IMG/VR virus record: IMGVR_UViG_3300042260_000887
Coordinates: 1-25,714 of that record
Direction: 5' to 3' (one strand)
Origin: a virus
Length of the DNA: 25,714 bases
Shown: positions 12,749-24,552 of the stretch, in pieces
Position numbering within the stretch: position 1 is the stretch's first letter
Layout of the letters: each line of letters opens with the position of its first letter
Position numbers and translations under genes: made by a program
The notes under the pieces: generated by a model
Told to the model about the DNA's origin: nothing
The model's database searches: none
Seen by the model: the letters and a program-made list of their open reading frames with translations, nothing else

Positions 12749-14266
12749 ATGTTATTAAGTAATATAGAATTAGATTCAATTGTTCAAGCTGGTTATTTAG
12801 ATTCTTATAGAAGTAATTTTAGAAAATTTTATAAAGAAGTGGCTTTTAATGCTATATTTCCCGGTAAAAAGTTAATTGAAGCTTATGTTACTGATTATCT
12901 ATGTGAAATTTGTGAAGCAAGTTTTCGTAAAGAAAAAGGTTATACAAAAATAATTGTAAATATTCCACCGGGTTTAATGAAGTCAACAATTATCTCTGGT
13001 GCCTTACCAGCTTGGGCTTTAGGAAATAGACCACAAGAAAGAATTTTTGGTGTTTCAAATACTGATGAATTAGTTAAAAGAAATATTGATTGGACTAAAC
13101 TAGTTATAGAAAATAAAAAATATAAAGAAATATTTCCTGAATTTTCTTTAAGAAAAGATACACAAACACATATTCAAACTCCCTTTGGTGGTGAACGAAA
13201 AGGATTTTCTACCTTAGGCGGTATTACAGGTGAAAGATGTGATATGATGCTTGTTGATGATTTTATGAACACTAAAATGTTATTATCAGATGCAGAAAGG
13301 ACAAGAGCATTAACATTATGGGCAGAGGGTTTTGAATCAAGACCAGATGCAAATGGTTCTATTGTAATTATTGAACAAAGATTAGACCCAAGAGATTTAA
13401 CTGGTTATATTTTAAGAACTAGAAGAGATGAATATACTCATATTTCTATACCAGCTTATTTTGAAGCTAAAAAATATTATACTATTGAATATACTAGAAA
13501 AATTAAAGATATTTCAGAAAAAGTAAAGTTTGAAATGTCTTTTGAAGAGGGGGATTTATTATCACCTCAAATTATTACTCAGAAAAAAATTGATGATTTA
13601 AAGAATAGAGTAGTTGACCCTGAAACTGGAATTGCAAATGGTAAATTTGTTTTCTTTGCTCAATACTTACAAGACCCTATTAATAAGGAAGGAAATTTAG
13701 TAGATGTTAATTGGTTTTTACCATCTAGATTAATTGATTTTGAAACTCTAGTATTTGATTATATTGTATGCTCTGTTGATTCCGCTCAAAAAGCTGAACA
13801 GATTAATGACCCATCTTGTTTTCATAAATATGGAATTATAAAAAATAAACCATATTTAATTGATAGATACTCAGAAAGGTGTTTATATCCCAAGACTAAA
13901 GAAGCTTTAATAGAATTTTTAACAAATGGATATAAAGTAAATTTTTGTTTAATTGAAGATAAAAATACAGGTTCATCATTATTGCAAGAATTACAAACCG
14001 AGCCTAGATGTGGTGGAGTTAGATTTATTAAAATTGAACCTGGTATAACTTCCAAAGAATTAAGATTTTCAACGGCTACTGGCTATATGTCTAAAGGAAT
14101 CTATGTTCCTAAAGATGCTATTTGGTATCCTGAATTTGAATCGCAAATGGTAAGATTTCCTAAAGCTCCGCACGATGATGATGCTGATGCTTGTTCACAA
14201 TTTTGCAATTATATGGCAATGAATAATTTTATGATGAATCCTAAAAATTTAATTTTTTCAGTTTAA
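12749..14266 (+). CDS. Terminase large subunit
   Basis: 505 residues, full length for the family. The ATPase part has an atypical Walker A, NIPPGLMKST (71-80), and Walker B MMLVDD (166-171) preceded by ITGERCD. Then IIEQRLDPRDLTGYIL (207-222), the coupling region typical of these terminases. The nuclease domain has SVDSA (D344), LIEDKNTG (E403) and KAPHDDDADA (D476-D480), the RNase H-like acidic cluster. It packages DNA through the portal using ATP and cuts the concatemer. It is transcribed opposite to all other late genes and its 3' end overlaps the tail-terminator-like gene tail-to-tail by 9 bases. No recognisable small subunit gene is adjacent. The start at 12749 has an A-rich leader and no SD. 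Confidence 0.92.
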   Translation: MLLSNIELDSIVQAGYLDSYRSNFRKFYKEVAFNAIFPGKKLIEAYVTDYLCEICEASFRKEKGYTKIIVNIPPGLMKSTIISGALPAWALGNRPQERIFGVSNTDELVKRNIDWTKLVIENKKYKEIFPEFSLRKDTQTHIQTPFGGERKGFSTLGGITGERCDMMLVDDFMNTKMLLSDAERTRALTLWAEGFESRPDANGSIVIIEQRLDPRDLTGYILRTRRDEYTHISIPAYFEAKKYYTIEYTRKIKDISEKVKFEMSFEEGDLLSPQIITQKKIDDLKNRVVDPETGIANGKFVFFAQYLQDPINKEGNLVDVNWFLPSRLIDFETLVFDYIVCSVDSAQKAEQINDPSCFHKYGIIKNKPYLIDRYSERCLYPKTKEALIEFLTNGYKVNFCLIEDKNTGSSLLQELQTEPRCGGVRFIKIEPGITSKELRFSTATGYMSKGIYVPKDAIWYPEFESQMVRFPKAPHDDDADACSQFCNYMAMNNFMMNPKNLIFSV

Positions 14267-19722: not shown

Positions 19723-20463
19723 TTATAATTTAATTTTAGGGTTAAAATTGTTAATTGCTAAATTAATAGCAAAACTGTCTAATATTGTTTCAATATCATT
19801 TTCAGATATTGGTGAAGCTTCCCGCTCCATTTTTTCCTCAACTTCTCGTTGATTAGAAATTCTTTTAATCAAGGCAATAAAAGCCTTGGCATCGCTTGAA
19901 GATAATTCACATCTTTCTTTTAATAAATCTTCAGCATCTCTGATGGTTTTAACTTCATTTAAAAACGATTTAAAGTTTTCCACAAGAGCATTATCATTAG
20001 CTCCTTTAACTACTAATGAATATTCAATTAATTCACCTTTAGTAATTGTTCTAATACCAGTTTTAGAATCATAATCAGATTCTCTAGTTAAAAATCCTAC
20101 TGAAAATTCACTAATAGCTCCACCTTTTACAAGTGGAATAATTTCTTTAGATACAAATTCACTTTCTTTAATAAGTTTGGCAGTAGAAGCTAAACCATCT
20201 TGTCTATCAAAATTGAATTCAGTAGCAATTCCAATAGGTCTATCGCTTTTATGGTTAAACAATATTGGAAAAGGACGATTAGCATTTAATCTTTTTTGAA
20301 TGCTATCATCAAAAATACCTTTAACCAAAATATCATTATCGTGGTCAATATTGTTATAGCCAGCAACCAAGCCAGATACATTAAAATACTTATCATCTTC
20401 ATTGCTTAAATCCTTTTGAGTTAAGTCAATGTTAAAAGTTTTTCTTATAAAGTTTTTGGACAT
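19723..20463 (-). CDS. Prohead protease (HK97 family)
   Basis: 246 residues. Family features: FNVSGLVAGYNNIDHDNDILVKG-like N-terminus with the D/G pattern (about 27-49), FPILFNHKSDRPIG with His71, and AISEFSVGF (116-124) with Ser121 in the S.G(F/Y) motif. Residues after 150 are a variable helical tail. It trims the capsid delta domain during maturation. First gene of the head operon on this side; about 100 bases upstream the plus-strand island begins. The portal gene, expected next, is instead 4 kb away past the island. Confidence 0.88.
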   Translation of the reverse strand: MSKNFIRKTFNIDLTQKDLSNEDDKYFNVSGLVAGYNNIDHDNDILVKGIFDDSIQKRLNANRPFPILFNHKSDRPIGIATEFNFDRQDGLASTAKLIKESEFVSKEIIPLVKGGAISEFSVGFLTRESDYDSKTGIRTITKGELIEYSLVVKGANDNALVENFKSFLNEVKTIRDAEDLLKERCELSSSDAKAFIALIKRISNQREVEEKMEREASPISENDIETILDSFAINLAINNFNPKIKL

Positions 20464-20565: not shown

Positions 20566-20940
20566 ATGGACGATAAAGATTCTAAATTTGTTGGTGTGAC
20601 AATATTTATTAGAAAGTTAAAACAACATATACCAATGTTGGTAGAATTAAATATGTTGAGTGGTAAAAAAGAACCTGATAAATTTTTAGATATAAACAAT
20701 TTAGAGTATTTAGAATATCGTCAGGCATTAGCTAAACAAAAGAAAGCAAGAAAGAAATATTTAGAAAAAGAATTTAATAATAATATACTTGGCATTTCAG
20801 GATACTCGCAATGGTATGTTAAAGATGTTCAAGGAATTAGAAATTGTTATAAAACAATTTTAACTCTCCTAAATCAAATCAAAGATTTAAGAGAAAAAAA
20901 TAAAAAATTAGAGGAAGAATTAAATAAACCATTAAAATAA
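20566..20940 (+). CDS. Hypothetical protein, C-terminal coiled coil
   Basis: 124 residues, no family recognised. It is charged and helical: KQKKARKKYLEKEFNNN in the middle and a heptad-like IKDLREKNKKLEEELNK at the end. First gene of the plus-strand island, starting from an AT-rich leader without SD. A terminase small subunit would fit the charge and coiled coil, but I see no helix-turn-helix and do not propose it. Codons are as AT-rich as the phage genes. Confidence 0.6.
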   Translation: MDDKDSKFVGVTIFIRKLKQHIPMLVELNMLSGKKEPDKFLDINNLEYLEYRQALAKQKKARKKYLEKEFNNNILGISGYSQWYVKDVQGIRNCYKTILTLLNQIKDLREKNKKLEEELNKPLK

Positions 20941-20956
20941 TTAACAATAAAAATAT

Positions 20957-21388
20957 ATGATAAAATTTTTTAAGAAAGAAAAAAAATTGAATTACTCGGT
21001 TTTAGATTTAGGTAATAATATTACTAGTTATTACAAAACTGAAAAGGAAGCTAGAAAAGCATCAAAACTCTTACAAGCAGAACTTTGGGAAAAAGAAAAA
21101 CAAAAAAGATTAGAACTTTATAATAAAATTATTAAAAAAGTAGATAATTTAGTTGAAAATGGTATTTTACCTAGATTAGCCTATGGTGGTTATCAAATAG
21201 ACCAAATTTATGTTCAGAATATTAATAATAACTATTTAGTTTATATTATAGATGAATATAATGAGATGAGTAGAGAACTAGGACAAAAACTATCTAATGA
21301 GTTATATTATTATGTTAAATCTAAAACATATATAGATTTAAAAACATATTTGGAAACACTTACACCTCCACCATCAGCACTTAAATAA
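20957..21388 (+). CDS. Hypothetical phage protein
   Basis: 143 residues, no family recognised. Basic N-terminus (FFKKEKKLNYSVLDLG), a helical charged part (about 33-65), then a tyrosine-rich half with YGGYQIDQIYVQNINNNYL and YYYVKSKTYIDLK, and a proline-rich tail (TPPPSAL). Starts 16 bases after the previous gene from AACAATAAAAATATATG. No signal peptide or membrane segment. Confidence 0.6.
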   Translation: MIKFFKKEKKLNYSVLDLGNNITSYYKTEKEARKASKLLQAELWEKEKQKRLELYNKIIKKVDNLVENGILPRLAYGGYQIDQIYVQNINNNYLVYIIDEYNEMSRELGQKLSNELYYYVKSKTYIDLKTYLETLTPPPSALK

Positions 21389-21409: not shown

Positions 21410-22000
21410 ATGACAGTATTAATAGCACAAAACACCAAAGACAAAATTATTTTAGGAGCAGACACTGGAACTTTTTATGGTGATTATCATAAAACTCATT
21501 TAACTAACCATAAAAACCGACTTAAAATAATGTCGGTAAATGATATTACTTACTCTGGCACAGGTTCAGTAAGTGAAATTATTAATTTTGGTTTATTTTG
21601 TCAAACAAGAAAACCAGAAAGAAGCGACCAATTAGGAATACAAAGATTCTTTATTGATTTTGGTAAATGGCTAAAAGAGCAAAATATAGAACTTAATGGA
21701 AGAGTTAATAATAATTATTTTTTAGTTTTTGAAAAAAAATTATTTCATTTACAATGTGGTGCAGTTTATGAAATTTTAGAAGATGATTTCAGAACTGATG
21801 GAGCTGGATTTAAAGAGGCTTATATGGCAATGTATCTAGGTAAATCAGTTAAAGAAGCAATTGATTTAACAATTGAAATGAATATCTGGGCTAGTGGGCA
21901 ACCTCAGATTGTAGAGATACAAAAAGATAAGAATAGTAATGTTCCCAAACCAAATCTAAAAGATATTGGTGGAATACAATGTAAAGGAATTAAAAAATAA
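21410..22000 (+). CDS. Proteasome/HslV-like N-terminal-nucleophile hydrolase
   Basis: 196 residues. It has the features of HslV and proteasome beta subunits: Thr directly after Met (TVLIAQ), which would be the N-terminal nucleophile after Met removal. ILGADTGT follows with Asp17 in mature numbering, the same spacing as in HslV. NHKNRLKI supplies a lysine (K34 or K38) near the Lys33 position. ITYSGTGSVSE (45-55) matches the 'AGxAG..A' strand-turn of HslV. FRTDGAGFKEAYMAMYLG (126-143) resembles the GSGG..A..AA segment, but the Ser there is Ala or Gly. A 20-residue tail follows. HslV itself is about 175 residues. It is unlikely to be a host gene: its codon use and leader match the neighbouring phage genes. 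No HslU-type ATPase is nearby. The target is unknown. Confidence 0.72.
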   Translation: MTVLIAQNTKDKIILGADTGTFYGDYHKTHLTNHKNRLKIMSVNDITYSGTGSVSEIINFGLFCQTRKPERSDQLGIQRFFIDFGKWLKEQNIELNGRVNNNYFLVFEKKLFHLQCGAVYEILEDDFRTDGAGFKEAYMAMYLGKSVKEAIDLTIEMNIWASGQPQIVEIQKDKNSNVPKPNLKDIGGIQCKGIKK

Positions 22001-22786: not shown

Positions 22787-23239
22787 ATGTCACTAAATAA
22801 AGTAACCTTAATTGGAAATTCGGGTCAAGATCCAGAAGTGCGCTCAACCCAAAATGGCGGAGAGATTGCAACATTTTCTATTGCTACTACAGAGAGTTGG
22901 AAAGATAAAAATACTGGAGAGCGTAAAGATAAAACTGAATGGCATCGTGTCGTGGTTTATTCGCAAGGGTTGGTTGGTATAGTAAAAAACTATTTAAAAA
23001 AAGGCTCTAAAATTTATATTGAAGGCGCCCTACAAACCCGCAAATGGACAGATAATCAAGGTATTGAACGCTATACAACCGAAGTGGTTTTGCAAAACTA
23101 TAATTCAAACTTGCAAATGTTGGATGGACGCGACAGGTCAAGCGGTTCAATGTCTGACAATGGTTATAATCAATCATCATCAAGCAAAAAAAATAATGAT
23201 GTTATGATTGAAGAAAATGATGATGAAATTCCTTTTTAG
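22787..23239 (+). CDS. ssb: Single-stranded DNA-binding protein
   Basis: 150 residues. OB fold throughout the first 105: [21 protein letters not shown], then [20 protein letters not shown] and [43 protein letters not shown]. The acidic tail ends DDEIPF, matching the bacterial SSB tip that recruits partners. The QTRKW and VVVYS stretches resemble alphaproteobacterial (Rickettsiales) SSB as I remember them. Binds ssDNA as a tetramer in replication and repair. Looks complete and functional. Codons contain GCC, CGC and CCC not typical of the phage genes around it, indicating host origin. Confidence 0.92.
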
Positions 23240-23262
23240 TTTTAAATATTATATAATTTAAC

Positions 23263-23934
23263 ATGGTTAAAATTTCTATTAACGGTGCAAATCACGAAGT
23301 TCCAAATGGAATTACAATAATTCAAGCCTGCGAAATTTCTGGCATCGAAGTCCCGCGTTTTTGTTATCATGAAAGATTGTCAATTGCTGGAAATTGTCGT
23401 ATGTGTTTAGTAGAGGTAGCTGGTGGACCACCAAAGCCTGTCGCTTCATGTGCTATGCCCGTTAATGAAAATATGCAAGTTTTCACCATGAACAAAACAA
23501 CAGAAAACCATATCATAATTTACACTGACGGCGCCTGCTCGGGAAATCCCGGAAAAGGCGGATGGGGAGCGGTTCTAATGGCAAATCAACATCGCAAAGA
23601 AATTTCTGGTGGTATGACTCAAACCACTAACAATCAAATGGAGCTTACCGCAGTAATCGAGGCTTTAAAAATTATCAAAAAACCTAGCGCTGTTCAAATT
23701 TTTACCGATAGCAAATATGTTATGGACGGCATTACCAAATGGATCAATGGCTGGAAATATAATTGCTGGAAAACCAAAGATAAAAAGCCAGTTAAAAATA
23801 TTGAACTTTGGCAAGCCCTTGATTTTGAAGTTTCAAGGCATCATATTCAGTGGCATTGGGTTAAGGGTCATTCAGGCAATGAAAATAATGAAATTGCCGA
23901 TCAACTCGCTCGCGAAGCAATTTCCAAAATTTAG
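23263..23934 (+). CDS. rnhA: Fusion: NuoG N-terminal 2Fe-2S domain + RNase HI
   Basis: 223 residues, two parts. Residues 1-75 match the N-terminal 2Fe-2S (N1b) domain of complex I subunit NuoG: ligands C34, C45, C48 and C63 with [22 protein letters not shown] and SCAMP. Residues 76-223 are complete RNase HI: D89, E127, D149 and D213 are spaced exactly as D10, E48, D70 and D134 of E. coli, H203 as H124, with [10 protein letters not shown] present. The junction is at an internal ATG (residue 76), which may be the original rnhA start, preceded by GTTTTCACC. RNase HI cuts RNA in RNA/DNA hybrids. The first part carries all four cysteines and could still bind a cluster. Whether the fusion is expressed as one protein is unknown; an internal start could give plain RNase HI. 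Confidence 0.9.
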
Positions 23935-24014: not shown

Positions 24015-24071
24015 ATGAACGAAATTTATTACACCCCTAATAACACAAATCAAAATGATAATAAAAAATAA
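24015..24071 (+). pseudogene. Start of a cut-off host gene
   Basis: An 18-codon reading frame, MNEIYYTPNNTNQNDNKK, beginning 81 bases after the RNase HI stop. It appears to run into phage sequence (AATAAAAAATAAAAT) and stop at 24069-24071. It could equally be chance. It is listed because, with the fragment at 22458-22616, it would mark both ends of the bacterial insert. Confidence 0.35.
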
Positions 24072-24078
24072 AATAAAT

Positions 24079-24552
24079 ATGAAAGATATTACATTCCATT
24101 ATACAAATGAGCAAATGGTTAAGGACTTATTAGCCATTACACCTATATTTCCAGCTGATACTGCTTTAGATGCTGGTAGTGGTAAAAATAAAGTATGGTT
24201 TAATAACTTACCTTGCCTTACAAAATATGAATGTGAAATTGAAGATGGTCACGATTTTTTAAAATGGGATAAAAAAGTAAATTGGGTTATTGGTAATCCT
24301 CCTTTTCATATATCTTGGAAATTTACAGAAAAGGCTTTAGATATTGCAACAACTGGTATAGCTTGGCTTATTAATAATCAAGCTCTTAATTCTCATTTAA
24401 CTCCAAGAAGAGTAGTTTTAATGCAAGAAAAAGGCTTTTATTTACAAAAAATACAAGTGGTTGCAGATAAAAGATGGTTTGGAAGATATTATTATTTAAT
24501 TTTTACTAAAGAAGTAAATAGTTTTTTAAATTCAACTATTAGAAGTTATTAA
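24079..24552 (+). CDS. Small phage-type SAM-dependent DNA methyltransferase
   Basis: 157 residues from ATG 24079. DAGSGKNK (about residues 32-39) is the SAM-binding loop (motif I, DxGxG) and NPPF (about 72-75) is catalytic motif IV of N6-adenine and related aminomethyltransferases. WLINNQALN and RWFGRYYYLIF follow. Start 24079 is chosen because it follows AATAAAATAAAT, the leader type of its neighbours, and lies outside the putative host fragment; an in-frame ATG at 24055 would add eight residues (MIIKNKIN). At this length it lacks a separate target-recognition domain, so may be an orphan methylase guarding phage DNA from restriction. Its target is unknown. Confidence 0.7.
   Translation: MKDITFHYTNEQMVKDLLAITPIFPADTALDAGSGKNKVWFNNLPCLTKYECEIEDGHDFLKWDKKVNWVIGNPPFHISWKFTEKALDIATTGIAWLINNQALNSHLTPRRVVLMQEKGFYLQKIQVVADKRWFGRYYYLIFTKEVNSFLNSTIRSY

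Follow-up and report, generated by a model that had tools for sequence, protein, structure and literature searches.

A divergent proteasome/HslV-type Ntn-hydrolase gene in a contractile-tailed phage with a probable Rickettsiales-like host

Phage-borne proteasome homologues have already been described and are common. Fuchs, Alva and Lupas named the family PPH in 2021, a tailed-phage proteasome homologue of about 140 residues lacking helix H2, for which neither a function nor an AAA+ partner is known; AAH and CPH are found in phages too, and RPC was, like PPH, described without H2 (PMC8665760). That work turned up nothing that hints at what phage proteasome homologues do (PMC8665760), and no such hint was found in the literature searched here. 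A Salmonella jumbo phage encoding HslV without HslU has also been reported (PMC7823757). Among cellular relatives, BPH has no known unfoldase, loses its methionine to expose Thr1 and binds epoxomicin, and no protease activity was detected for it (PMC5777263). The gene analysed below is a divergent new member of the phage homologues, and its existence alone is no surprise.

The window, i.e. the whole stretch of DNA that was analysed, is a complete linear IMG/VR record of 25,714 bases. Portal, sheath, S78 prohead protease, terminase and tail genes identified its phage as contractile-tailed. The peptidase gene lies at 21410-22000 on the plus strand, opens with ATG and a Met1-Thr2 start, ends with TAA and encodes 196 residues. 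It is preceded, in the same direction, by two small ORFs of 124 and 143 codons (20566-21388), and belongs to a short plus-strand cluster that is divergent from the prohead protease gene (19723-20463, minus strand; PF04586, E 2.6e-16), which encodes the phage's own head protease, and from the main minus-strand block of structural genes. Comparisons with ten relatives gave dN/dS values of 0.12-0.25; the ORF is real and under purifying selection. As for PPH, carriage by a tailed phage or prophage was found, both from the window genes and from the 12 viral contigs bearing homologues.

Assignment of the protein to a family depended on the search tools. Taken alone, it had no significant match in Pfam (PF00227), NCBIfam or the PDB, and searching the PDB with the single sequence or with a nine-member profile returned only noise. 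It did match PHROG 1040, "peptidase HslV family", over residues 1-183 (E 6.5e-12). Two scans of viral contigs yielded 12 relatives (one partial) and a genome scan a further one, on a contig of the Rickettsiales bacterium MAG JTM.66; eleven sequences, 65-94% identical to the window protein, formed the family alignment. Bridging PPH sequences were then gathered from viral contigs, giving a joint alignment of 66 sequences. HHalign joined the window family to the PPH profile (96.7%, E 4e-10) through a direct match spanning the C-terminal 82 columns only, so that, for the N-terminal half, the call is based on the joint alignment, the structural model and the match to PHROG 1040. The joint profile found HslV (1m4y, E 1.3e-11) and BPH (5ovs, E 1.7e-11) in the PDB; all 66 of its members matched PHROG 1040 and 24 matched PF00227. 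PPH itself matched alphaproteobacterial HslV (97.1%, E 6.7e-11), and the negative control, the S78 protease, gave nothing (E 0.68). Judged by the PHROG score, by the HHalign score against this control and by the structural model, the resemblance exceeds chance. The family was thus detected because PHROGs or bridging PPH sequences were used; Pfam, NCBIfam and single-sequence PDB searches miss it. The earlier note had proposed an HslV/proteasome-type Ntn hydrolase, and this was borne out; neither of the results that it named as refuting, no Ntn-hydrolase match at high probability or a different predicted fold, was obtained. Its suggestion of mimicry of host HslV was dropped, the family being closer to PPH and BPH and showing no profile match to alphaproteobacterial HslV (HHalign 0.5%, both profiles being shallow).

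A relative compared by tblastn with deposited phages gave weak matches, mostly annotated as HslV or Ntn hydrolase, and phages of Caulobacter, Rhizobium and Vibrio are among those with annotated homologues in PHROG 1040; identities of only 19-31%, at E 0.2-5, indicate that the window family is a divergent clade. The window protein itself recovered from phage records a single non-significant match to an apparently unrelated protein (L036). A weak match in G329, a further genome from the order (E 1.2e-4 over 263 genomes), was treated as chance, and no PADLOC anti-phage defence model matched the peptidase.

A monomer modelled by AlphaFold from the 66-row alignment, which already contained PPH, reached a pLDDT of 88.4 and a pTM of 0.82; with nine close relatives only, the model was poor (pLDDT 41.9). 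Helices at 54-64, 74-90, 134-142 and 147-157, and a last strand at 165-171, follow the order of the proteasome fold. In Foldseek searches of the PDB, four BPH chains ranked first (5ovt, TMq 0.77, E 1.5e-10), followed by HslV (TM about 0.6) and 20S subunits, and the best 50 matches were all proteasome-like. Among predicted viral structures, 42 matched at E <= 0.001, several of them named proteasome or HslV subunits. A proteasome-like fold is close to certain, and the alpha-beta-beta-alpha arrangement expected by the earlier note was recovered in the model.

Helix 74-90 (21629-21679) matches H2 and falls in a gap of the PPH rows of the alignment. The window clade shares with PPH its phage location near structural genes, the absence of a propeptide, the Met-Thr start and the T1/D17/K33/G47 set. 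However, its members are about 171-209 residues long with a predicted H2, against about 140 residues without H2 in PPH, and they carry GAG and N..[AT]SG where PPH has mostly GSG and D..[ST]G. Owing to the differences in length, H2 and second triad, the clade was filed as PPH-related rather than as PPH proper in a comparison covering PPH, BPH and HslV; it could be nearer to AAH or CPH. BPH (5OVS/5OVT, PMC5777263), the best structural match, likewise has H1 and H2 and no known ATPase partner, but it is only about 19% identical to the window protein, its pore loop is long and acidic, and its GSG is intact, whereas the window protein has a short H2-S7 linker and Ala in place of Ser129. HslV (ClpQ) has the same fold and catalytic triad, but its structural score was lower, no direct profile match was obtained, and no HslU gene was found in the phage.

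The residues of the primary active site were conserved. Thr2 (21413-21415), the predicted nucleophile Thr1 once Met is removed, Asp18 (21461-21463), equivalent to proteasome Asp17, and Lys39 (21524-21526), equivalent to Lys33, were invariant among the 11 family members and among 66 aligned phage homologues. Gly52 (21563-21565), the predicted oxyanion-hole Gly47, was invariant in the 11 and present in at least 90% of the 66, and the GAG segment at 131-133 (21800-21808) was invariant in the 11, with both glycines, G131 and G133, invariant in the 66. These data upheld the threonine directly after Met, the aspartate at 17 when Thr is counted as residue 1, the SGTGS turn, which holds Gly52, and the GAG segment at 130-132 in that numbering. 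The lysine described as lying near Lys33 needs correction: an invariant lysine exists, at 38 in the same numbering, while the one nearest 33 (at 34) varies. On this alignment, the equivalents of the Thr1/Asp17/Lys33 triad and of the oxyanion Gly47 are retained, and a catalytically competent enzyme is likely.

The second triad, Ser129/Asp166/Ser169, was altered. The absence of Ser from the GAG segment is real and clade-wide, Ala132 occupying the position of Ser129 in 11 of 11 members; Asn158 aligns with Asp166, position 161 is A or T, and S162 is invariant. According to a simple pattern scan, PPH sequences have Ser at the Ser129 position in 63 of 72 cases and Ala in five. This triad is auxiliary and is not among the family-defining criteria of Fuchs et al. 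(PMC8665760). In yeast beta5, D166N lowered activity by about 60%, and it has been proposed that the Thr1 amine receives a proton by way of Ser129/Asp166 (PMC4792962). Together with the Ala and Asn found here, this suggests that peptidase activity could be weak or specialised: the enzyme is probably active, but slower, its activity being reduced by the changed second triad, or more specialised.

Neither the window nor the records of six relatives yielded an HslU homologue, these seven phage records being possibly fragments; their only AAA match was a single weak one, below cut-off. The lack of an ATPase partner gene, remarked upon in the earlier note, is therefore true for the window, and hslU is present, with hslV, in the probable host lineage: a 79% identical homologue comes from the Rickettsiales MAG, in which HslU (597 bits) and an HslV of the MAG's own are also encoded. 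By inspection, the MAG contig with this homologue held phage-like genes only, so binning alone is weak evidence for a host. However, DNA spanning ssb-nuoG in the window is 87% identical to the MAG over 548 bp, and an rnhA segment is 79% identical, which ties the phage independently to this lineage. A Rickettsiales-like bacterium is thus the probable host lineage.

Taken together, we favour, with somewhat better than even confidence, a group I Ntn hydrolase related to PPH and BPH that would assemble by itself, act independently of an ATPase and be used against host proteins. Thr1 would become exposed once Met1 is cleaved off by the host's methionine aminopeptidase; as the protein starts with Met-Thr and has no propeptide, autoprocessing is not needed. 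Lys33 (K39), together with Asp17 (D18), would take the proton from Thr1, with Gly47 (G52) providing the oxyanion hole. Subunits would most likely form a BPH-like ring or double ring that could degrade or clip its substrates, unfolded or specific peptides, with no AAA+ ATPase of its own. The gene is part of an accessory cassette, its target being most likely a conserved host protein, for example one of defence or housekeeping, and not the phage head. The parts of this proposal differ in strength: family, fold, invariant catalytic residues and purifying selection are computed results; that the peptidase works without HslU seems fairly probable, while a host-directed role is tentative, with chances a little short of even. 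A more specific version, in which a Rickettsiales-phage subfamily has kept H2, lost the Ser129/Asp166 proton shuttle and turned, without an ATPase, to an altered chemistry, a specialised form of clipping or transfer by which a conserved host protein is put out of action, is doubtful.

Gene neighbourhood and conservation bear on a role in head maturation, i.e. a protease acting on virion proteins. The peptidase gene adjoins the prohead protease gene in the window, in L001-L007 and in L013, and portal or terminase genes lie beside many PPH genes; of the named families encoded beside other PPH genes (80 neighbours), those of terminase, portal and head-tail adaptor were the commonest. A proteasome-type gene in a head-module island had been considered unusual by the earlier note, but the PPH family was already described from phages (PMC8665760), a single short scan gave matches in at least 426 viral contigs, and these neighbours indicate that the location is not unusual. 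Against processing of the head stands the dedicated S78 prohead protease already present, as does the position of the peptidase gene in L008, L009, L010 and L011, where it lies elsewhere and not beside the prohead protease gene. Moreover, the peptidase is 65-84% identical across phages whose head and tail proteins are only about 20-45% identical (about 30-45% for the prohead protease, sheath, adaptor and baseplate), the capsid protein being possibly unrelated between them. Conservation of the peptidase while head proteins diverge suggests no apparent co-evolution with virion substrates, and head maturation was judged the least probable of the readings. Recent transfer between phages was rejected as the cause of this conservation, pS being 0.51-0.60 for the peptidase gene and 0.50-0.76 for its neighbours; both ranges are near saturation, so that constraint explains the conservation as well as transfer does.

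Two further explanations concern the biochemistry of the protein. A phage HslV could dock on host HslU and redirect it, an idea consistent with the HslU and HslV genes of the Rickettsiales MAG and with a fold that matches HslV; the missing profile relation to alphaproteobacterial HslV and a structure nearer to BPH argue in the other direction, and such docking is unlikely. The protein may instead be a catalytically dead or non-proteolytic derivative of the fold, acting as a binder, a decoy or a connectase-like transferase, as connectase is itself a proteasome fold turned ligase (PMC8665760). The changes at Ser129 and Asp166 in the clade fit this proposal, but the full retention of the Thr1, Asp17, Lys33 and Gly47 equivalents would hardly be expected if catalysis had been lost, and we regard it as slightly less probable than docking. 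The clade is small and conserved (65-94% identity), keeps the main triad alongside a natural Ser129-to-Ala change and has a link to a Rickettsiales host lineage, which makes it a practicable system for asking why phages carry proteasome subunits.

Several other features of these phages were observed. Slots near the peptidase gene in relatives hold genes for a DNA methyltransferase, an HNH endonuclease and an RNA-repair-type nucleotidyltransferase. L001, a close relative of the window phage (94-99% in shared genes), has a nucleotidyltransferase (RlaP-like) and a C5 DNA methyltransferase in the variable slot between peptidase and portal (L001:9035-11006). In seven relatives, the peptidase gene is immediately preceded by a conserved ORF of about 100 codons (at 7714-8004 in L006, 7717-8004 in L007 and 7643-7963 in L013), which shares 4 bases with the peptidase start in two of them, L006 and L007; its product is a possible partner of the peptidase, and BLAST found it absent from the window. 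The large terminase gene (12749-14266, plus strand) is located inside the minus-strand structural cluster, at the same place in L001 and beside the portal gene in L002 and L004.

Host-derived cargo was found at 22787-23934, where ssb and the first 76 codons of nuoG, in the same gene order as in the MAG, are joined to a complete rnhA. An 8-base shared sequence, TTTTCACC, lies at the nuoG-rnhA junction (about 23480-23487), and the join forms one open ORF of 223 codons in which a 2Fe-2S domain is fused to RNase HI; it may reflect a chimeric assembly or the capture of genes through microhomology. A partial DNA methyltransferase gene at 24055-24552, matching positions 216-323 of the 458 in PHROG 799, is probably truncated. 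In the tail protein encoded at 1864-2469, the motif APPYTPPFIPT occurs twice, about 30 residues apart.
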